This document shows positions 21,564 through 31,293 of a stretch of 32,213 nucleotides of DNA, piece by piece (within the stretch, counting starts at the first letter, position 1; the number at the start of each line of letters is the position of its first letter). Source of the DNA: Bacteroidales bacterium (GTDB lineage Bacteria; Bacteroidota; Bacteroidia; Bacteroidales; P3); contig JAFSYK010000035.1 in assembly GCA_017449975.1 (NCBI GenBank), positions 1 through 32,213 on the forward strand. Direction: 5' to 3'. The notes beneath the pieces are model-generated. The model worked only from the letters and a program-made list of their open reading frames with translations, was not told the origin of the DNA and searched no databases. The translations under genes and the position numbers were made by a program.

Positions 21564-24500
21564 TTACAAAAATAAGAAATTTTCTCCTTCCGCCGCCATA
21601 GGAAGCGGTTCTTCTTCGTTCATCGAGTAGGGTTTTACATTTAAGGCTATCGTAGTGGCTCTGTTCTTCTTGAAATTCTCCGCCTGCTCGAAGATGGCCT
21701 TGAACACCTCGTCGCGTGTCGCCGGCGGGTATTTGTGTTTGGCGAGGGTGAGGATGATTTGTACCTTCAGCTGCGCCTTGATGTCGGATTTCTTGTCCCA
21801 GTCGATGTATTGTGTCTTGTCGTCGACCACCTCTTTCACATCCTTGGCCAGGGCAATGTACTGCTCCTCTGTGTATTCGTTGAGAAATCCATACTGCTCG
21901 GCCACGGCCTTCAGAATGTCGTAGAAGGCTTTGACCTCGATGTTGGGTATTCCTTCGGGCAACACGCTGTCTTTCTTGATTTCTTCAAACAGCTCCGCCA
22001 GCTGGTTGGCTACCTCTGTCACAATCTCATCGGCCAGCACAATGTCGTCCGACCGGTCGTTGTACTGGTCTATGATGCCGTTCAGCCGCTCGGTGAAACA
22101 GACGGCTTTCACCTTGTTCACCTTCTTTACGCTGTCAATGACCCGCTTCAGCAGCTGCTCCATCAGTTTGACTTTTGTGTTCTGATAGGGCAGTCGTTTC
22201 AGGCGTTCCATATACTGTGTGGCCAGCAGGTCGATCTGTTCGGTGTTGTCGAGCGACATGCTGTTGATGACCACCACCTCTTCCGAGATAAGCGCCTCGT
22301 TGACCAGCTGCAGCACGTGGCGGTTCATCTGCGAGGCATCGGGCGATTCGCCGACGGTGGTCTTGTAGATGACCGAGCGCACACCCGTGAAGAAATGCAC
22401 ATCGTTCACCTCGTCCCTGCTGATACGCTCGTCGTTGTTGCACATGTTGTAGGCCGACTTCATGATGGTGGTGTGCTTCATGAATCGCTTCTCCGTCTCG
22501 TCGGTCTGTTGAATGCGCTCGGCGGCCAGTTGCAAGGTGTCGAGTTGTTCCAGCGGTGTGCCCGTGAAGAATTTTTTATAATCGAAGCCGTGGAACATGC
22601 GCCGCAGCAGGTCCAGTTCGTCCTTGAACAGCTTGACGGCACTGTCGATGGTCTCCACCGGCGTCTCGTTCTGTCCGCCGTTGGCATATCTCTTCATCGC
22701 CTGGTTGAACTTCTTCTTGATGCCGAGGTAATCGACAATCAGGCCTTTGTCCTTGCCGGGATAGTTGCGGTTCACGCGGCTCACGGTCTGTATCAGTGTG
22801 TGCATCTGCAACGGCTTGTAGCAGTACATCGTGTCCAGACAGGGCACGTCGAAGCCCGTTATCCACATGTCCACCACGATGGCGATCTTGAAGTTCGACT
22901 TCTCTTCTTTGAACTGCAGGTCCAGCTTCTTGCGGTCTTCGTCGGTACCCAGCAGGTTGTACAGCTCTTCGGGGTCGTCTTTCTGACGGATGAAGACCAT
23001 CTTGACCTTCTCCATCGGCTTTATCTTCTCGGCCTCCTCTTTGCTGAGTTCTTCCCCGTCGCCGCATACTTTCACCTCTGCCCATTCGGGTCGCAAGGCA
23101 ATTATCGCCTTGTATATGGCATAGCCTATTTCGCGGGTGGCGCAGACTATCATCGCCTTGCCTTTCACGGTGCTGCCCTCTTCCACACGGCGCTCGTAGT
23201 GTTGTATGAAGTCCACCGCCAGCCTATGGATAAGGTCGGGACTGTTGAGCAGTACGCTCATCTGGGTCATTGCCCGTTTGCTTTCCTCAATCTGGTAGTC
23301 GGTCGAGCCCTCTTCGGCACATTTGTCGTAATAGGCTTCTATCTGCTTGATGAGTTCGCTGTCGGCGAAGACATGCGAGGCACGTCCCTCGTACATAATG
23401 GTCTTGGTGATGCCGTCGTTCACGGCCTCTATCATCGAGTATTCATCCACTATGGGACCGAAGACCTCGAGCGTCGGGTCGATGGGTGTGCCGGTGAAGC
23501 CCACGTAGGTGGCGTTGGGCAGCGAGTCGCGAAGGTATTTGGCAAAGCCATACGAGCGGCGCACACCCTTGTCAGTTATCTCCACCTTCTCCTCCAAGCC
23601 CGTCTGAGAACGGTGTGCCTCGTCGCTGATGCAGATGATGTTGGCGCGGTTGGATAGCAGGTTGATGTCCTTGGAAAACTTCTGTATGGTGGTGAGGAAC
23701 ACGCCGCCGCTAGTGCGTCCCTGTAGTTTGGCCTTCAGGTCCTCGCGGCTCTCCACCTGCTCTATCACGCTGTCGCCCACAAACTGCTTGGCGTTCAGCA
23801 ACAGACGCGACAGCTGGTCGTCGAGGTCGGTGCGGTCGGTGATAAGGATGATGGTCGGGCTGCACAGGGCTTTGCTCTTCATCAGCAATCGCGACAGGAA
23901 GAGCATCGTCAGCGACTTGCCACAGCCCGTGGCGCCGAAATAGGTACCGCCCTTGCCGTCGCCGCCGGGGTTGAGCTTGCTGTGGTTGAGGATATTCTGG
24001 TACAGGGCTCGGGCAGCGAAATATTGCGGATAGCGGCAAATGAACTTGCGCTCGTCTTTCGAGGTGTCGGGGAAGTAGATGAAGTTGTGGACGACATCGA
24101 TAAGGCGGTCCTTACGAAACAATCCTGCCACCATCGTCTTCAGCGAGGGGATGCCGCTGTCGGCCTTGTCCTTGGCGTTGACTTTGCGCCAGGCGTAGAA
24201 GAATTCGTAGGGGGTGTAGAGTGTGCCGAATTTGTTGTTCACGCCGTCGGAGATGACGATGAAGGCGGTGTATTTGAACAGCGCAGGGATGTCGCGTCGG
24301 TAGCGGATGGTCAGCTGCTTGTAGGCATCCTCGATGGTGGTGTTCTGCTTGATAGCGCTCTTGAACTCAAACACCACTACAGGCAGGCCGTTCAGGAAGA
24401 TAATGGCATCAGGTATGCGACGCTGGTTCCCTACGATGTCGTATTGATTGACAACCTTGAAGATGTTATGTTTCTGCTGACTCTCTTCGAAAGCGATGGG

Positions 24501-24818
24501 TTGGATGTAGAGGTTCTGCCGGGTCGCGTCCTCACGTTTCAGCGAGAAGCCGTCCATCAGCAGATTCATCGTGTGTCGGTTCTCCTCGTAGAGGCTGCCG
24601 CCGGCCTTCTGCATGATGATGCGGATGGCTGCCTCCACTTCCTGCTCCGTGATGCCGTCGTTCTTGTAGCGGCTGCGGAGATATTGCGCAAGGTCGTCGC
24701 GCAGCACCACCTCGTCAAGGTCGCGCACGATATCCTCTCCTTTGACGTAGTCATACCCCTGCTCCTGCAGCAGGGTGACAATCGACATCTCTAATTGGCT
24801 TTCGTTGAAGTATGGCAT
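21564..24818 (-). CDS. hsdR: Type I restriction enzyme subunit HsdR
   Basis: 1084 residues. The ATP-driven translocase and nuclease of a type I system, needed for cleavage but not methylation. The nuclease motif is D137 (PDAIIF) with E151-K153 (FEFK). The superfamily 2 helicase motors have GATGCGKS (295-302), SDEAH (398-402) and the late VSRVNRNYPGKDKG motif. The C-terminal helical region binds the methylase core. GC-rich like hsdM. The start overlaps the upstream DUF1016 gene by 68 bases; Met12 is an alternative start that would shorten the overlap. Confidence 0.95.
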   Translation of the reverse strand: MPYFNESQLEMSIVTLLQEQGYDYVKGEDIVRDLDEVVLRDDLAQYLRSRYKNDGITEQEVEAAIRIIMQKAGGSLYEENRHTMNLLMDGFSLKREDATRQNLYIQPIAFEESQQKHNIFKVVNQYDIVGNQRRIPDAIIFLNGLPVVVFEFKSAIKQNTTIEDAYKQLTIRYRRDIPALFKYTAFIVISDGVNNKFGTLYTPYEFFYAWRKVNAKDKADSGIPSLKTMVAGLFRKDRLIDVVHNFIYFPDTSKDERKFICRYPQYFAARALYQNILNHSKLNPGGDGKGGTYFGATGCGKSLTMLFLSRLLMKSKALCSPTIILITDRTDLDDQLSRLLLNAKQFVGDSVIEQVESREDLKAKLQGRTSGGVFLTTIQKFSKDINLLSNRANIICISDEAHRSQTGLEEKVEITDKGVRRSYGFAKYLRDSLPNATYVGFTGTPIDPTLEVFGPIVDEYSMIEAVNDGITKTIMYEGRASHVFADSELIKQIEAYYDKCAEEGSTDYQIEESKRAMTQMSVLLNSPDLIHRLAVDFIQHYERRVEEGSTVKGKAMIVCATREIGYAIYKAIIALRPEWAEVKVCGDGEELSKEEAEKIKPMEKVKMVFIRQKDDPEELYNLLGTDEDRKKLDLQFKEEKSNFKIAIVVDMWITGFDVPCLDTMYCYKPLQMHTLIQTVSRVNRNYPGKDKGLIVDYLGIKKKFNQAMKRYANGGQNETPVETIDSAVKLFKDELDLLRRMFHGFDYKKFFTGTPLEQLDTLQLAAERIQQTDETEKRFMKHTTIMKSAYNMCNNDERISRDEVNDVHFFTGVRSVIYKTTVGESPDASQMNRHVLQLVNEALISEEVVVINSMSLDNTEQIDLLATQYMERLKRLPYQNTKVKLMEQLLKRVIDSVKKVNKVKAVCFTERLNGIIDQYNDRSDDIVLADEIVTEVANQLAELFEEIKKDSVLPEGIPNIEVKAFYDILKAVAEQYGFLNEYTEEQYIALAKDVKEVVDDKTQYIDWDKKSDIKAQLKVQIILTLAKHKYPPATRDEVFKAIFEQAENFKKNRATTIALNVKPYSMNEEEPLPMAAEGENFLFL

Positions 24819-26019
24819 AATGCTGTTTTTCTTTGTGTTGCAAATAGTATATATTCTTTTGTGCCTCTATCTCTGCACGCAACTCCTCGTCTGTTGGCAT
24901 ATAGGTCTTATATTTAGCAGCAAACAGTTGGTCATTGTCGTGGAGTACTGAGTATCGTGCAATGTCTTCATCCGTGTCGGCACATATCAAAATGCCAATG
25001 GTGGGATTGTCATTCTCACCTCGTTTCAACTCATCATACATCCTAACATACATATCCATCTGGCCTACATCCTGATGGGTTACCTTGGTCGTTTTGAGGT
25101 CTATCAACACAAACGATTTCAACAAGTAATTATAGAAAACCAAGTCAATATAATAATCCTCCTTCTCTGTATGGATGTGTTGCTGTCTGGCAACAAAGGC
25201 GTAGCCCTTCCCCAGCTCCATAATGAACTTTTGCAAGTTGTTGATGATACTTGTCTCAAGTTCAGACTCTGTAAACGTCACCTCCTGTGGAAAACCGAGG
25301 AATTCGGCAATTACCGGATTCTTGATAAATTCCATCTTGTCCTGCAGTGGAGTGGTTTTCTCAATCATTTCCTCGTGCACCAACTCTTTGTGTTGCGATA
25401 TCAGCATTCGATGGTAGTACTGGCTGCTGACGTTACGTTGCAGTGTCCGTGTGCTCCACATCTCGTTGGCAGCCTCACGTTCATACCAATCGCGAGCTTC
25501 CTTGCTAGTCTCCTGGAGAATAATGCGATAGTGTGTCCAGGAAAGGCGAATGGGTGATTTTGCAGTTAATGATTGCAGTATGTCTGCCACAGAAGATTGT
25601 GAACTCATTGCGTTCACAATGTTGGTTGTAGTAATTGATAATTGTGAACTCGCTGCGTTCACAATCTCAAAACCTTCAGATTGTTCCAGCGGTGTTGGAA
25701 CAATTTCGGATTTTCCACTCACTGCGTGGAAAAAGTCCTGGTGCTTACAATAGAAATCCACAAAATGATGCAGATTCCTTTTGATAAACCCCTTTCCATA
25801 TTTATCTGTCAATCTTTCTGCTAGCTGCATCACCACCTGCTCTCCGTACTCTGCCCGTTGTTCATTGAGAATTTCTTTCTGGATACGCATGCCAAGTAGC
25901 CAGTTGCGTTTGATTAGCGTGACGTTAACTGAATTATAGGCAGTCCGTTGTGCTTGCTCGACAATAGTGCAAGCATCGCCGAACAAAGAACCCTTTTCAA
26001 TAGGAGTAATATCTTTCAT
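24751..26019 (-). CDS. DUF1016/YhcG PD-(D/E)xK nuclease, copy 1
   Basis: 422 residues. The N-terminal DUF1016 domain (ALERTs such as LIKRNWLLGMRIQKEIL and LTDKYGKGF) is followed by a PD-(D/E)xK domain with DYYIDLVFYN and LIDLKT as the metal and catalytic region. Such proteins are common beside type I systems and are probably DNA nucleases with an undefined part in defence. Residues roughly 95-143 are a repetitive insertion (IVNAASSQ, IVNAMSSQ, FHAVSGKS) encoded by four 25-base hairpins. The last about 25 residues are read from the start of hsdR in another frame, so the normal stop may be lost. More AT-rich than hsdR. Confidence 0.82.
   Translation of the reverse strand: MKDITPIEKGSLFGDACTIVEQAQRTAYNSVNVTLIKRNWLLGMRIQKEILNEQRAEYGEQVVMQLAERLTDKYGKGFIKRNLHHFVDFYCKHQDFFHAVSGKSEIVPTPLEQSEGFEIVNAASSQLSITTTNIVNAMSSQSSVADILQSLTAKSPIRLSWTHYRIILQETSKEARDWYEREAANEMWSTRTLQRNVSSQYYHRMLISQHKELVHEEMIEKTTPLQDKMEFIKNPVIAEFLGFPQEVTFTESELETSIINNLQKFIMELGKGYAFVARQQHIHTEKEDYYIDLVFYNYLLKSFVLIDLKTTKVTHQDVGQMDMYVRMYDELKRGENDNPTIGILICADTDEDIARYSVLHDNDQLFAAKYKTYMPTDEELRAEIEAQKNIYYLQHKEKQHYAILQRKPIRDVDCHPAAGAGV
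25596..25734. repeat. Cluster of four 25-base hairpins in DUF1016 copy 1
   Basis: 25596-25620: arms ATTGTGAAC/GTTCACAAT, loop TCATTGC. 25641-25665: the same arms, loop TCGCTGC. 25680-25704: ATTGTTCCA/TGGAACAAT, loop GCGGTGT (related to the others when inverted). 25710-25734: TTTTCCAC/GTGGAAAA with one end mismatch, loop TCACTGC. Starts are 45, 39 and 30 bases apart, all multiples of three. Confidence 0.85.
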
Positions 26020-26071
26020 CTTGACTCTATTATCTGATTGTTACCAATTCATTTTATATTAATTACTCTCT

Positions 26072-26194
26072 AAAACCGACCTTTTGCCTACCATTACCAA
26101 TCTCGAACAATGTCCGAACGAATCCCGAAGAAAACCCGAACAAAACCCACCTGTTCAAAAGCCATTCCCTAATCCACAAAACCGACCTTTTGCC
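26072..26194. repeat. 17-base direct repeat in the gap before DUF1016 copy 1
   Basis: AAAACCGACCTTTTGCC at 26072-26088 and again at 26178-26194, with CCCGAAGAAAACCCGAAC-type words between. The gap 26020-26226 holds no gene that I can see and no clear -7 box. Confidence 0.75.
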
Positions 26195-26226
26195 AAAAGT
26201 TAAAAATCTGTATGTCATAAAGTACA

Positions 26227-27039
26227 TTAATCAATATAGTAGGCTGATTTGTGTGCATCATTTAATTCATTTTTGCATTTATATAATAAATCCAAATAAT
26301 CTTGATTGTAAACCACTAACTTTTCTAACAAATTCACACATAACTGACAATATCTTGTTTTAAGCATTGCCATACAGTTTGGGAATGCAAGATTTACAGA
26401 TTCCCAATCTCTGCAAACTAAACTATTTTCAGTGTATGGTATTTTGTCGAAGCTACTATAATCAATTCCGCATTTATCGCACTCCTTTATAAGATCTTCT
26501 TGCAATCTTCTAGAAGATTCAACGACTGAATTAATGTTATTTTGCAAACATTCGTATGTCTCTTTGATGTTTTCCATTAAAGAATAAATATCGTTTTCTC
26601 CCAATTCCATTTTGAAACCAGAGTCATCCATTTTGTCCATCAAATGCAGTGAAGTCCAATATCTTTCCGAATCCTTTTGCAACAAAAGTAACATTGTATC
26701 GGTTGCTTCTAAATGCTGTGCCGAATATTTATTTTCGTGTGATTTTTTGATGGTTTTCAGTTTTTCAACAGTATATTGCTCTGGATGACTATCTATGATT
26801 TTATGGTGTCTATGGCACATGAACACTAAATTACCATAACCATTTCTTTCCTCGTCCGTTTGTTGTTCATTATATCTTGGACCATCTTTGGAATAGGCTT
26901 CAATGTGACAACACTCTCCTGTCAATGTTCCGTCATCCTCAAAAATGGGATTATGACATCCTTCAAATGCACAACAGTTCCCCGAATGGGCATATAGAAG
27001 GCGTAGTGTTTTATTGGGTATAGTGTTCCGGCGTGCCAT
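26227..27039 (-). CDS. HNH-type endonuclease with helical C-terminal domain
   Basis: 270 residues from the ATG at 27039 (MARRNTIPNKTLRLLYAHSG); an ATG eight codons upstream (27063) is possible. The N-terminal half is an HNH module: CCAFEGCHNPIF zinc-type start, then ECCHIEAYSKDGPRYNE, NLVFMCHRHHKIID and SHPEQYT, giving the His-Asn-His set. After about residue 115 the chain is mainly helical and I do not recognise it. Strongly AT-rich compared with hsdM and hsdR. It lies between a coiled-coil/zinc protein and DUF1016 copy 1 inside the type I operon, suggesting acquired defence cargo. Confidence 0.8.
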   Translation of the reverse strand: MARRNTIPNKTLRLLYAHSGNCCAFEGCHNPIFEDDGTLTGECCHIEAYSKDGPRYNEQQTDEERNGYGNLVFMCHRHHKIIDSHPEQYTVEKLKTIKKSHENKYSAQHLEATDTMLLLLQKDSERYWTSLHLMDKMDDSGFKMELGENDIYSLMENIKETYECLQNNINSVVESSRRLQEDLIKECDKCGIDYSSFDKIPYTENSLVCRDWESVNLAFPNCMAMLKTRYCQLCVNLLEKLVVYNQDYLDLLYKCKNELNDAHKSAYYID

Positions 27040-27119
27040 ATTATTATTCCCCAACTTTTTCAAATGAATTATTTTTAATTTCTCGTTTTATGTTTCTGCA
27101 CAATAATAATTATCTACTA

Positions 27120-27497
27120 CTAATAATAATATCTTTGTTTATATTTCTCATATTCAATTTTATCATATATACAACTCCAGTGACATTGAGGGCATGTGCT
27201 CTCTCCGTACGACTTCTCCAACTGAATCAGTTTTCTATCATTATCCCAACAATGTGAACAAAAAAAGATGTCGCAGTCCTCTCCTTCTAATGTTATGTAT
27301 AATTCTTTATGTCGTTGGATGCGCTCTTCTAAATTATGCTTCTTCTTAAGTTCTGCATTTTCCTCCGTCAGCTCTCTTATTTTGGCTTGTAAATCTAAAG
27401 CTTGTTCGCATAAATCAATTAGTTGCCGATATAATTCAACATTATCAGCCTGTTGCACGACTTTAGCAACATCCTTTAATCCTTCGTAAAGACTCAT
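27120..27497 (-). CDS. Coiled-coil plus zinc-ribbon protein, unknown function
   Basis: 125 residues. Residues 1-70 are a helical, heptad-rich stretch (LQAKIRELTEENAELKKKHN). The rest carries CSHC and CPQC pairs, a likely zinc ribbon, and ends in Lys/Tyr-rich KYKQRYYY. AT-rich, 16 bases after hsdS and 56 before the HNH gene. Not a family I can name; small zinc/coiled-coil proteins of this kind often accompany mobile or defence genes. An adaptor role is a guess. Confidence 0.65.
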   Translation of the reverse strand: MSLYEGLKDVAKVVQQADNVELYRQLIDLCEQALDLQAKIRELTEENAELKKKHNLEERIQRHKELYITLEGEDCDIFFCSHCWDNDRKLIQLEKSYGESTCPQCHWSCIYDKIEYEKYKQRYYY

Positions 27498-27513
27498 ATT
27501 ATCATTAATTTTA

Positions 27514-28656
27514 TCATTTCCCCATCTTTGCCAGAAGCAAAGACTGTAATTCTGTTAATTTTGTGTTTTCTTGTTGTATTATCAGCATATTCTCATAAAG
27601 AACTTCTGCTTCTTTATTAAAAGCATTTCTTGCTTTTATCGGAGCTATTACTATTTCTGTGTTTTCAAAATCTTTAGTAACCAGCGCCTCAAAGGTCGCT
27701 CCAACAGCCTCATTCTTTAATGATATCATCATTTCCAATGCTAACTGATGAACATAAAAGGAATTCTGCCTATCTTTTGCTACAAGTGCATAGCATGTCT
27801 GATTCATTGCCATAGGACATCCTGTCAAGGTCAGACCTCCTGTAGTAGCACCACGAGCCGTAACAAATGTTGTATTTTCTGGATATAACTTACTATTACA
27901 ATGTATTAATCCTTTTTCTGTAATATGCTTTCCCGTTACCAAGGAATAATAGAAACTTGTTTTATCTCCTGGTGAATAAAACGGAATATTACCATCTTCC
28001 CAATATTCAATAATATCCGTACTTGGTGTTCCACCACCACAAATATCTATAACTTCCGTAAATGTTCCTATGCGCCAGCCGGCGGGGAGGTTTTCTTTGT
28101 CGATGTTGTCGACGAAGGTTTTGCGGTAGAGGGCTTGGGCGGTGGCTTCGAGGTGCGCAATCATCTGCTCGTTGAGGCGGATGCGGCGCGTCAGCGTCTC
28201 GTATTCCGACACGATTTCCCGCTGCCGCTCAATGCTCGGAACGGGAAGTTGCATATTACAAAAATCTTCCCAAGTCAAACTGCCTCGAACACCGCCAACG
28301 GCATAGTAACTTGCCTCGCGGTCGAACTCACTGCGTGAAAACCACATCATCAAATATTGAGGCAACAACTTCGTTTTGTCAACCACCTCAAACATAGGGT
28401 AGGCAGGAGACATAATGGCCTCATCTTCTTCAAACATAGCAATGGGCATTTTCCCATCACGACTTACCTGCATCAAACTACAGGCAAACTGCTCTCGGCA
28501 GATAACTTTATAATTGGACAGGTCGGTACCTATAACATTCGCAACCGAAGGAATAAACGCCTTGTCAATCGTAAGCCCTACCAGCCGCGTCACCTTCAAG
28601 TCGCGGTTGCGGACATTCACCTCCCTGATATAGTCGCCTAATTGCTTATATTCCAT
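27514..28656 (-). CDS. hsdS: Type I restriction specificity subunit HsdS
   Basis: 380 residues from the ATG at 28656, which overlaps the upstream DUF1016 stop by 11 bases. Two target-recognition domains each end in helical spacers: TRD1 with MMWFSRSEFDREASYYAVGG, a central spacer (LPVPSIERQREIVSEYETLT) and TRD2 starting LPAGWRIGTFTEVIDICGGG. It sets the DNA sequence recognised by HsdM/HsdR. The central spacer region (about 28070-28250) is visibly GC-rich while both TRDs are AT-rich, which fits TRD exchange. TRD2 looks somewhat short, but the C-terminal spacer (ENMLIIQQENTKLTELQSLL) is intact. Confidence 0.92.
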   Translation of the reverse strand: MEYKQLGDYIREVNVRNRDLKVTRLVGLTIDKAFIPSVANVIGTDLSNYKVICREQFACSLMQVSRDGKMPIAMFEEDEAIMSPAYPMFEVVDKTKLLPQYLMMWFSRSEFDREASYYAVGGVRGSLTWEDFCNMQLPVPSIERQREIVSEYETLTRRIRLNEQMIAHLEATAQALYRKTFVDNIDKENLPAGWRIGTFTEVIDICGGGTPSTDIIEYWEDGNIPFYSPGDKTSFYYSLVTGKHITEKGLIHCNSKLYPENTTFVTARGATTGGLTLTGCPMAMNQTCYALVAKDRQNSFYVHQLALEMMISLKNEAVGATFEALVTKDFENTEIVIAPIKARNAFNKEAEVLYENMLIIQQENTKLTELQSLLLAKMGK

Positions 28657-29716
28657 TTTCCTCACTATTTTTTGCAGCTTCAGTATATTCTTTGGCAATA
28701 AGAATAGAACGATTCAGCTTATCCACAAACCATTGTTTATCAGGTAGACAAGTAAGGTACTGAGCAACCTTGATACGATCTTCGTTCAGCATCATTAGCT
28801 CAATATGTTCGGTATTCCCCTCGCTGCAAAGTAATAGGCCAATAGGTGGGTTTTCATCTGGCTGCATATCATTTTTCTGCATGTATCTTAGATATAATTC
28901 CATCTGACCCTTATATTCTGGCTTGAATTTCCCGAGTTTCAAGTCAATGGCAACCAAACACTTCAGTTTCCGATGATAGAACAACAAATCAAGATAGTAA
29001 TCAGTTCCATCAATGGTGAAACGTTTCTGACGTTCAAGGAAGGCAAAACCTTGCCCCAACTCCAAAATAAAAGCCTCTAACTGCAATGCTATAGCATCCT
29101 CAAGTTCTTTTTCGGTGTAGTAACGACCTAATCCCAAGAAATCCAGTATATACGAATTGCGAAGAACCACATCTGGTTCCATATGGATAGGCGATACTTT
29201 CTCCAAAGTCTTAACGATTTCGTCCTCTGGCTTTACCGCAACCAGAGAACGCTCATAGAGCATCGCATCCTGCTTGTCACGCAGTTGTCTGATGCTCCAA
29301 TGTTCAGCAATTCCCATCTGCTGATAGAATAATCGTTTAGCATCATCATCAATAGTGACAAGTTCTATAAAGTGGCTCCAGGTTAATGTTTGCGACAGTG
29401 TCGCAAACATTGCTTCGTCACTGTAACACTTGGCGACTTTCATCATTCTCGTCAAAGCGGAATAGGTATATCCCTTCCCAAAACGCTCTGTCAATTTTTG
29501 CGACAGTGTCGCAAGAATCTTGTTACCATAAGACGAGTACTGCCTGTAGCCAAGATCATCATTGATGTACTGACCAATATGCCAAAACATCATATTGGCA
29601 TGCTTGTTAACATACACCACAACCTCTTGGCGTGCATGATCGATTATGCTAGCGACTCCCGTATATAGGCTGCTGCTAACATTTTCAATGGCATTTATAT
29701 CTATTTCGTTACTCAT
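28646..29716 (-). CDS. DUF1016/YhcG PD-(D/E)xK nuclease, copy 2
   Basis: 356 residues. Same architecture as copy 1 without the long insertion: DUF1016 part with ILATLSQKLTERFGKGYTYS and FATLSQTLTWSHFIEL, then a PD-(D/E)xK domain with DYYLDLLFYHRKLKCLVAID-LKLG. Two 25-base hairpins encode the two ATLSQ segments. It starts 14 bases after hsdM and overlaps hsdS by 11 bases, so it is in the operon. Copy 1 and copy 2 are clearly diverged, so not a recent duplication. Confidence 0.85.
   Translation of the reverse strand: MSNEIDINAIENVSSSLYTGVASIIDHARQEVVVYVNKHANMMFWHIGQYINDDLGYRQYSSYGNKILATLSQKLTERFGKGYTYSALTRMMKVAKCYSDEAMFATLSQTLTWSHFIELVTIDDDAKRLFYQQMGIAEHWSIRQLRDKQDAMLYERSLVAVKPEDEIVKTLEKVSPIHMEPDVVLRNSYILDFLGLGRYYTEKELEDAIALQLEAFILELGQGFAFLERQKRFTIDGTDYYLDLLFYHRKLKCLVAIDLKLGKFKPEYKGQMELYLRYMQKNDMQPDENPPIGLLLCSEGNTEHIELMMLNEDRIKVAQYLTCLPDKQWFVDKLNRSILIAKEYTEAAKNSEENGI
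29386..29518. repeat. Two 25-base hairpins in DUF1016 copy 2
   Basis: 29386-29410: arms ATGTTTGCG/CGCAAACAT, loop ACAGTGT (palindromic throughout but for the central base). 29494-29518: ATTTTTGCG/CGCAAGAAT with one G/T mismatch, loop ACAGTGT. They are 108 bases apart (36 codons) and have the same 9-7-9 layout as the copy 1 hairpins. Confidence 0.85.
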
Positions 29717-29730
29717 TTATACTATCATTT

Positions 29731-31293
29731 TTAAATACTATACCCCAGTTTTTTAAAGAGTGATTTCAGTTCCTTTGTGCTTGCCTCTTCCTGTTTCAGC
29801 AGGTCACGCATCTCGGATTGCAACTCTTTCATCTTAGCATCGAAGTCTATCTGCTCGTCGCGGTTGCGGAACTCGATGTATTTGCTGGGGACAAGGCTCC
29901 AGCCTTTCTGCTCTATCTCTTGGCGGGTGGCGGAGTAGCAGTACTCCGGCTCGTTGTGGTAGGTCTGCTCGTGGCCGGCACGCTGCCAGCAATGGTAGGT
30001 GTTGGCAATCTGCTGTATTTGCTCGGGTGAGAACTGGATGTATTTCTTCTCGAAGGGCTCGCCCTGCTGCCGCAGGTCGATGAAGAGCACCTCGCCCTCA
30101 CGGTCGCGGTAGTGTACCTCCTCGCCGTTTTTCGTCTCGACATGCGCTTTCTTGTTGTTGTTCAGTATCCACAGCGTGACGCTGATGTCGGTGGAGTAGA
30201 ACATGTTTCGGGGCAGGATGAGGATGGCCTCCACCTTGTCGTTCTCGATGAGCTTGCGACGGATGGCCAGCTCGGTGCCGTCGGCACTCAGGGCGCCGTT
30301 GGCCAGCAGGAAGCCCGCCACACCACGGTTGGAGAGCTTCGACAATATGTTCAGAATCCAGCCATAGTTGGCGTTGGATGTCGGAGGCGTCTCGTAGCCA
30401 CTCCAGCGTGGGTCAGAGGTGAGCTGGTTAGCTTCGCGCCAGTCCTTCTGGTTGAAGGGTGGGTTGGCCATGATGTAGTCGGCCTTCAGGTCGGCGTGCT
30501 GGTCGTTGTGGAACGTGTCGCCCTGACGGATGGCCGCCGAGATGCCACGGATGGCCAGGTTCATGCGTGCCAGCTTGAAGGTGGTGTTGGTGTTTTCCTG
30601 TCCGTAGACGCTGATGTTCTTCATATTGCCGTGGTGGGCGCGGACAAACTTCATCGATTGCACAAACATGCCGCCCGAGCCGCAGCAGGGGTCGTAGATC
30701 TTGCCGTCGTAGGGCTCGATGAGTTCGGCAATGAGGTTGACGATGGACTTGGGGGTGTAGTATTCGCCCTTGCCTTTGCCTTCGGCGATAGCGAACTTGC
30801 CGAGGAAGTACTCATACACGCGACCGATGAGGTCGTTCTCGGAGTCGCGGACGGTGTCGAGCTTGTTGATTTCGTCGAGGAGGGAGGCGAACTTGGTCTT
30901 GTCCAGCCCGAGGTTGGAGTAGTAGTTGTTGGGCAATGCTCCCGCCAGCTGCTTGTTCTTCTTCTCGATGTCGGCCAGCGCGTCGTCGATAATCTGGAAG
31001 ATGTTGCTCTGCTTGGCGTTCTGCATGATGTACGACCAGCGGCACTGTGGTGGCAGGTAGAAGACGTTTTCGGCAGTGTAGAACTCCACCGTATCGACAT
31101 ATTCCTTCAATCCCTGCGCCTCAAGTTCCTGTTTGCGCTGTTCGAAGCGGTCGCCGGCATACTTGAGGAAGATGAGACTCAAAACCACATGCTTGTATTC
31201 CGCCGGTTCCACGGCCCCGCGCAACTTGTTGCACGACTCCCACAGCGCCGCCTCCATGGGTTTTGATTGTTTGGTGTTATTTTGTTTTGCCAT
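29731..31293 (-). CDS. hsdM: Type I restriction DNA methyltransferase subunit HsdM
   Basis: 520 residues. N6-adenine methyltransferase. The N-terminal HsdM helical domain starts LWESCNKLRGAVEPAEYKHV, the SAM site is DPCCGSGGMF (201-210) and the catalytic NPPF is at 277-280. EFRNRDEQIDFDAKMKELQS forms the C-terminal helical end. With HsdS it methylates, with HsdR it restricts. First gene of the operon, with its own -7 box 47 bases upstream. GC-rich. Confidence 0.96.
   Translation of the reverse strand: MAKQNNTKQSKPMEAALWESCNKLRGAVEPAEYKHVVLSLIFLKYAGDRFEQRKQELEAQGLKEYVDTVEFYTAENVFYLPPQCRWSYIMQNAKQSNIFQIIDDALADIEKKNKQLAGALPNNYYSNLGLDKTKFASLLDEINKLDTVRDSENDLIGRVYEYFLGKFAIAEGKGKGEYYTPKSIVNLIAELIEPYDGKIYDPCCGSGGMFVQSMKFVRAHHGNMKNISVYGQENTNTTFKLARMNLAIRGISAAIRQGDTFHNDQHADLKADYIMANPPFNQKDWREANQLTSDPRWSGYETPPTSNANYGWILNILSKLSNRGVAGFLLANGALSADGTELAIRRKLIENDKVEAILILPRNMFYSTDISVTLWILNNNKKAHVETKNGEEVHYRDREGEVLFIDLRQQGEPFEKKYIQFSPEQIQQIANTYHCWQRAGHEQTYHNEPEYCYSATRQEIEQKGWSLVPSKYIEFRNRDEQIDFDAKMKELQSEMRDLLKQEEASTKELKSLFKKLGYSI

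Follow-up and report, generated by a model that had tools for sequence, protein, structure and literature searches.

Autoregulation through intragenic operators, in which the binding site of a regulator lies within a reading frame, is known, and the spo0J gene of Bacillus subtilis contains a parS site. In the ParB-parS and Noc-NBS pairs a helix-turn-helix reads a palindrome in a two-fold symmetric manner; helices 4, 6 and 8 of ParB contact parS, specificity is determined by residues 173 and 201, and R204 touches DNA, so that both the recognition helix and later helices touch the site and single residues switch single base pairs (PMC7383237, in the excerpt used here). Palindromes inside coding sequences are also described from nematomorph mitochondrial genes, where they are perfect and their complementary arms were kept in evolution (PMC6649704, excerpt), while REP and Rickettsia palindromic elements are short palindromes, some of them intragenic, that occur as repeats inserted at many loci (excerpts of PMC3733652 and PMC4316617). 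Here we describe a 27-bp palindrome within genes of the DUF1016 (YhcG) nuclease family, starting from two such genes in a 32,213-nt stretch of a Bacteroidales genome of 2.31 Mb (contig JAFSYK010000035.1; the stretch in full is called the window). The palindrome is probably a two-fold symmetric recognition site for the DUF1016 protein of the same gene, and is best read as a self-encoded, parS-like or operator-like putative site of a protein that joins a ParB-like helix-turn-helix to a PD-(D/E)XK nuclease.

Reading of a palindrome by a helix-turn-helix, as in ParB and Noc, is predicted for DUF1016 from sequence. The DUF1016 site differs from parS and the Noc site in being 27 bp long with an odd centre, hypervariable, and placed inside the coding sequence of its own putative reader. 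The protein differs as well, since it has a nuclease domain, and the ParB/Srx CTP-binding domain was neither among the 25 listed of the 33 families matched by 70 alignment members nor found in single scans. Unlike intragenic operators, the site is made up of codons for the DNA-binding domain of its putative reader; it keeps one phase throughout the family and coevolves with that reader. The nematomorph palindromes are long, scattered over many genes and, in the excerpted text, without an assigned function (PMC6649704), whereas those of DUF1016 are 27 bp long, belong to one family and one place, and are coupled to a DNA-binding domain. In contrast to REP and Rickettsia elements they are nearly confined to one family and its 3' flank, and their arms are gene-specific. 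A helix-turn-helix, a palindrome and an intragenic site are thus each known in kind, while the self-encoded, hypervariable, family-wide arrangement is new; no description of palindromes in DUF1016/yhcG was met with in the literature searched, which left out most subscription papers and bioRxiv.

The two genes, A and B, and their palindromes are as follows; pairs are numbered k from the centre outward, and fit refers to the residue-to-base code set out below.

28646-29716, minus strand: DUF1016/YhcG gene B, 356 aa (Pfam).
29493-29519, minus strand: palindrome B1 (site 1), peptide ILATLSQK, helix preceding FGKGY, 11/13 pairs.
29385-29411, minus strand: palindrome B2 (canonical site), peptide MFATLSQT, immediately 5' of LTWSHF, 13/13 pairs.
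29291-29482, minus strand: putative ParB-like helix-turn-helix region of gene B, residues ~79-142 (numbers mapped by eye).
28733-29167, minus strand: YhcG_C PD-(D/E)XK nuclease domain of gene B (Pfam).
24751-26019, minus strand: DUF1016/YhcG gene A, 422 aa, DUF1016_N and YhcG PD-(D/E)XK domain (Pfam).
25709-25735, minus strand: palindrome A1, peptide FFHAVSGK, 10/13 pairs; fits the code at k3, k4 and k5, not at k7.
25679-25705, minus strand: palindrome A2, peptide IVPTPLEQ, 10/13 pairs; the exception, does not fit the code of gene A.
25640-25666, minus strand: palindrome A3, peptide IVNAASSQ, 10/13 pairs; fits the code.
25595-25621, minus strand: palindrome A4, peptide IVNAMSSQ, 11/13 pairs; k3-k9 arm identical to A3; fits the code.

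The initial annotation, made from the letters alone, had noted six in-frame hairpin modules at these places, each with 9-base arms and a 7-base loop, with matched changes in both arms around a kept core. All of this was recovered: the arms pair at 9/9 positions in the modules starting at 25596, 25641, 25680 and 29386, and with one mismatch in nine at 25710 and 29494. Gene A may hold a fifth, decayed module (peptide DILQSLTAKS, ~25557-25581, by eye only). Its N-domain spans residues 17-204 (188 residues) against 137 DUF1016_N positions in Pfam, which indicates an insertion of ~51 aa that holds the four palindromes.

The 9-7-9 description of arms and spacer stands, although the unit itself is larger than was claimed and its supposed loop is symmetric too. 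It is a 27-bp odd dyad of 13 pairs around one centre base. In 211 genes aligned at the Trp codon, Watson-Crick pairing exceeded background from k=1 to 13 and lay at background from k=14. With modules selected by the other pairs when each k was scored, so as to avoid circularity, the paired fraction (expected value in brackets) was 0.71 (0.37) at k=1, 0.86 (0.29) at k=2, 0.61-0.84 (0.35-0.49) at k=10-13 and 0.29 (0.31) at k=14. Several or all pair types occur at each of the arm pairs k=3-9, and the commonest form reads AATT, seven free complementary bases, CA, centre, TG, seven bases, AATT, with AAAA on the left side in one subfamily. Codon tables for the module ends were considered as an extra sequence specificity and set aside, as pairing and peptide account for them.

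A hairpin of mRNA or single-stranded DNA as the functional form, a hairpin-level function being one of two readings offered in the initial annotation, is very improbable. Many genes do have perfectly paired, freely varying arms, and one count that includes the ends (k4-13) gives more G.T than A.C mismatches (33:22). However, the ratio is 11:46 at k3-9, where it is in part dictated by amino acids, and 6:13 at the pairs set by synonymous choice (k4, 5, 7, 8), so no mismatch set has the clear G.U preference expected of an mRNA stem. The symmetry also continues within the loop at k=1 and k=2; k=1 cannot pair in a hairpin loop and is symmetric nonetheless, which speaks against a hairpin. Covariation of arm bases with residues of the helix-turn-helix, described below, is a further argument against it.

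The family was sampled as 224 distinct genes: 4 belong to the genome itself, 84 to the order and 3 to E. coli, while viral contigs contributed 53 and GTDB species, archaea among them, another 80 (the best 80 among 586 relatives). Duplicates were removed, as were genes containing N and those with a domain match of <100 columns. Loci L075-L105 had been found by a palindrome pattern that fixes k8 = T.A and k10-13; they were excluded or shown apart in the 60-nt scores, pairing extent, density, phase, upstream and even-length counts, and included in the whole-gene shuffles, the counts of one- and two-sided changes and all residue-base covariation sets. Of 295 genomes sampled from the order, 181 have DUF1016_N. 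Among those listed from 90 distinct domains scanned, most have the palindrome right before the LSW motif despite differing peptides (IVQTVSAQLSW, IVYTLCRQLSW, PKWNAVRSELSW, EKLRQLVAEIPW).

Within 60 nt upstream of the Trp codon, a best score of at least 10/13 was reached by 52/71 unselected genes of the order, 58/80 GTDB and 31/53 viral genes, as well as by 3/4 genes of the genome itself and 3/3 of E. coli; perfect 13/13 palindromes stood there in 12, 5, 10, 1 and 1 genes, respectively. The palindromes are thus present in homologues, and they are conserved at the DNA level. Synonymous shuffles reached 10/13 in the same zone in 5.6% (order), 3.8% (GTDB), 3.2% (viral), 2.5% (own) and 11.7% (E. 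coli) of cases, and in the three homologue sets this is far below the real genes. Since such shuffles, which the initial annotation had named as a refuting test, rarely give palindromes of this strength, the palindromes are not a by-product of the codons, and chance or codon usage was rejected as their cause. Over whole genes, with the pattern-selected loci included, a 13/13 palindrome occurs in 45/224 genes and in 1/4480 shuffled genes. An odd or even palindrome of at least 11 pairs lies within 200 nt upstream of Trp in 142/211 genes (shuffles 2.1%), and four of the 142 are of even length.

Place and phase are usually fixed. One codon phase holds 177 of 180 palindromes of at least 11 pairs. 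Of these 177, 91 are centred on column 90, 59 have their centre in insertions that follow column 82, and 7 are centred on column 54 (site 1). A selfish palindromic element inserting in frame, like the Rickettsia elements, would account for the additional copies, which occur in tandem, N-terminally, at site 1 and 3' of the gene, and for copy numbers that differ among E. coli strains, yet we hold it to be highly improbable. The main copy fills the canonical domain columns without insertion (column 90), copies per E. coli genome are few, and the arms covary with the reader. Insertion in many unrelated genes, as in Rickettsia, was not seen: palindromes of at least 12/13 numbered 114 in 244,782 bases of DUF1016 open reading frames (ORFs) and 6 in 450,612 bases of surrounding DNA, a 35-fold higher density in the ORFs. 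Likewise 19 of 23 palindromic pattern hits lie in DUF1016 ORFs, and of the remaining four, two (L099, L100) lie in seemingly broken DUF1016 genes. The suggestion in the initial annotation of a palindrome spreading inside the family may suit the extra copies, whereas the main copy, which keeps one column and phase in most genes that have it, looks ancestral.

Several palindromes depart from the usual form or place. The even-length version (L159, L063, L061, L207) has the centre ACG^CGT and the usual Trp offset, as if the half-site spacing were one base shorter. AATT-ended palindromes stand 12-30 nt past the DUF1016 stop in L131, L133 and L223 and resemble the one found 3' of E. coli yhcG. The unrelated genes L051 and L232 have a distinct palindrome in common, CTTGATATC...GATATCAAG, ~75-90 nt upstream of the domain start and near the gene start. 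A perfect 13/13 palindrome (L089:1501-1527) lies between a HypE-like and an aminotransferase-like ORF in genome G204, which is without a listed DUF1016_N match. Another (L080:1501-1527, 11/13) lies in a short ORF upstream of an ATPase-like gene at a locus where no DUF1016 gene was detected, with a second palindrome of different arms, seen by eye, ~54 nt beyond it.

The bases of the arms covary with residues of the protein. When identity in the rest of the domain was removed, arm similarity in 174 genes was best tracked by the putative recognition helix, at columns 66-77 (partial r 0.18), and the top single columns were 69, 67, 97 and 73. In 148 genes, column 69 goes with k7 (R69 with G.C in 56/57, K69 with C.G in 11/12, Q69 with C.G in 9/10), column 97 with k3 (A.T in 81/88 for S97 and 0/35 for T97, C.G in 8/8 for G97), column 100 with k4 (R100, C.G 39/41), column 73 with k5 (N, Y or Q73, A.T 84/88; R73, C.G 19/25) and column 72 with k8 (E72, C.G 15/16). 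Tables drawn from 60 genes of the genome itself and the order predict 88 others, from E. coli, GTDB species and viral contigs, and none of the six couplings was equalled in 1000 shuffles; five of the six rank first to fifth of 880 column-pair tests and 73-k5 ranks twelfth. In the test that respects relatedness, with 46 nearest pairs each used once, 97-k3 is the best of 895 (Fisher P 4.4e-6), followed by 72-k8 (0.0034), 69-k7 (0.0036), 100-k4 (0.012) and 125-k3 (0.018). Between distant pairs, at 25-40% identity elsewhere, code residues agree at 0.38 where all five code base pairs are common (37 pairs) and at 0.12 where none is (1008 pairs).

Tables from 93 canonical sites also predict 163 palindromes at other positions (0/500 shuffles per coupling). 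These palindromes encode peptides placed elsewhere in the protein and still obey the code, and the coupling therefore appears to act through DNA. For the same reason, packing of the palindrome-encoded helix on the reading helix was judged an unlikely cause of the covariation. Palindromes within one gene agree at k3 in 0.76 (0.38 expected), at k4 in 0.78 (0.36) and at k8 in 0.67 (0.37), and less at k6, k7 and k9 (0.46-0.53; 0.33-0.38 expected).

In the window, B1 and B2 encode different helices, yet their bases k3-k8 are identical. At columns 67, 69, 72, 73, 97, 100 and 125 gene B has T, S, T, R, S, I and I, and gene A has I, R, H, H, T, R and T; A3 and A4, which have G at k7, C at k4 and G at k3, are as the residues of gene A predict, and A1 is so at the inner pairs only. 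In the genome itself the core of gene B matches exactly only at B1 and B2, with one further place at 2 mismatches. The arms of gene A recur at up to one mismatch only in gene A, and at 2 mismatches in ten or so places, one of them inside the third DUF1016 gene. Targets of the two genes' palindromes elsewhere in the genome were consequently rejected, as exact or nearly exact matches (at most one mismatch) are confined to the genes themselves. The third (L001) and fourth (L002) DUF1016 genes have palindromes at the homologous place, with 11/13 and 10/13 pairs.

The covariation of arm bases with helix-turn-helix residues suggests that a protein dimer reads the palindrome, and from this coevolution we infer physical binding and dimerisation. 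In the proposed mechanism, the ParB/Noc-like helix-turn-helix of DUF1016_N would bind as a dimer, each half-site being read by one subunit. The recognition helix (columns 69, 72 and 73) would read the outer pairs k7 and k8 and k5, while the inner pairs k3 and k4 would be read by residues of later helices (columns 97, 100 and 125). An evolutionary change of reading residues would be followed in both half-sites, giving matched arm changes; the reader varies, and therefore the arms seem to vary. The main site would be made of the codons for the helix that follows the recognition helix and precedes the LSWSH helix, with extra sites at other places in the gene or shortly 3' of its end. As the site lies inside the reader's own codons, specificity and target would move together in recombination and transfer. 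By our guess, such binding would serve to control the gene of the nuclease itself, most likely through negative autoregulation by a roadblock within the coding sequence, which would suit a toxic or mobile defence gene.

The reader weakly resembles the ParB/Noc helix-turn-helix. Its N-domain is all-helical in an AlphaFold2 model built from a 70-sequence alignment (mean pLDDT 81.5), with site 1 in helix 62-79, a further helix at 85-97, the canonical palindrome encoding helix 100-110 and the WSHF motif beginning helix 113-119. Weak Foldseek matches included the DNA-binding region of Noc (7nfu; probability 0.99, E 0.07), EndoMS (0.99) and the Holliday junction enzyme 1ob8 (0.93). HTH_ParB matches 33 of the 70 members at E <= 1, at best 8.4e-5. 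With hhalign, 148 DUF1016_N domains aligned to five ParB sequences, taken from 14 loci (L270-L283), at E 0.0011, pairing S-W-S-H-x-x with S/T-M-G-H-A-R and W-S-x-R-E with L-S-V-R-E, and placing S97-H-x-x100 opposite ParB G-H-A-R, where the specificity residue 201 and the parS-contacting R204 of ParB lie. A sequence search of solved structures returned no DUF1016 relative and no ParB.

Several points weigh against a self-encoded recognition site. That hhalign alignment has a probability of 20%, and global mode leaves the domains unaligned; Foldseek with the model gave no match at E <= 0.001, and HTH_ParB was found in 6 of 10 singly scanned proteins, every one below the curated cut-off. The coupling 73-k5 is not significant among nearest pairs (P 0.12). 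All six couplings were chosen on the full 148 genes, such that the later tests are independent in their fitted tables and not in that choice, the covariation shuffles ignore relatedness, and copies in one gene may share bases through duplication. A2 and part of A1 violate the code in gene A, in some genes site 1 and the canonical site have different bases at k7, and 26/211 genes have neither an odd palindrome of at least 10 pairs nor an even one of at least 11. Lastly, a search for an upstream operator up to 700 nt 5' of the domain found no consistent palindrome, which leaves ordinary autoregulation unsupported.

The missing operator-like pattern upstream of the genes would sit well with a protein-bound site that serves cleavage or loading in place of an operator, where the nuclease cuts or nicks DUF1016 genes, in homing or competition between alleles, or is loaded in a parS-like manner. 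This we consider possible, if on the unlikely side. The PD-(D/E)XK domain is present, the family is catalogued as the defence candidate PDC-S02, several sites occur per gene as in parS clusters, and copies are many per genome, with up to 14 matches. However, cutting its own intact gene would demand tight control, no clean allele without a site was found, and the ParB CTPase domain was missing from the listed families, as noted above.

In E. coli the copy number of modules varies between strains, a point that the initial annotation had proposed to check. The yhcG gene of K-12 holds three palindromes in one phase (nt 316, 355 and 394), and of 15 alleles scanned, nine carry three modules, whereas two modules are present in three alleles and a single one in the other three. 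The change looks like deletion, with two shortened classes that have different end points, one of them frameshifted. DNA matches to yhcG were found in 4417/5426 E. coli genomes, 3310 of them over at least 80% of its length. A related palindrome has its centre 27 nt past the stop codon of yhcG, and strain L108 has another 3' of gltD; at BLAST E <= 10 the former has one to six similar places per genome in 4386/5426 genomes and the latter one to four in 5331/5426.

Between alleles L262 and L263 one module differs by a compensated pair and three core bases (5/27 positions, against 29/1086 outside). Such changes recall a function-free process in which replication template switching between the arms perfects palindromes, as proposed for the coding palindromes of nematomorph mitochondria (PMC6649704, excerpt) and for RNA hairpins (PMC8794818, excerpt). 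Two-sided changes outnumber one-sided ones by 49 to 8, in pairs that are not independent. As an explanation of the palindromes such self-maintenance is improbable, because it does not predict their fixed length, place and phase across bacteria and archaea, their enrichment in one family or the covariation with the helix-turn-helix; template switching may be the origin of the compensated changes.

Breaks in yhcG were also noted. In 10 of 60 listed E. coli records the match stops at nt 406, with a transposase gene next in L107, and two of the 60 match from nt 385 onward only, with IS1 in L108; both breaks lie inside palindrome 3 (nt 381-407). L113 is broken at nt 235 and L114 at nt 1060.

By gene calling and Pfam, the minus strand of the window holds a type I restriction-modification locus, in which the following genes accompany A and B.

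29731-31293, minus strand: hsdM (Pfam).
27514-28698, minus strand: hsdS (Pfam).
21564-24818, minus strand: hsdR (Pfam).

Two ORFs between hsdS and gene A, at 26227-27063 and 27120-27497 on the minus strand, have no Pfam match at 1e-3; judged by eye, a Cys/His pattern in the first resembles HNH, and a CxxC pair in the second resembles a zinc ribbon. DUF1016_N (PF17761) and YhcG_C (PF06250) are both above cut-off in genes A and B, as in 70/70 alignment members, and both genes match PADLOC PDC-S02 (E 9.2e-126 for A, 1.7e-114 for B), by sequence match only. A viral search with gene B as the sole query returned no relative.

Taken more broadly, DUF1016 nucleases may be self-addressed, the codons of the DNA-binding domain doubling as the cognate target of that domain. 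Reader and site would then form an inseparable, freely rewritable unit. Its many distinct specificities, spread over bacteria, archaea and phages, could be read from sequence through a residue-to-base code, and the self-site would control or propagate a defence nuclease that moves between genomes. We regard this wider proposal as plausible, with somewhat less than an even chance of being right. If it is true, a very common and uncharacterised nuclease family would gain a DNA target that can be read from each gene, and hence a testable role. The family would also offer a large natural series of matched protein-site pairs for the evolution of DNA-binding specificity, and a source of orthogonal DNA-binding domains. 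A strong constraint on DNA can be concealed in a variable segment of a protein.

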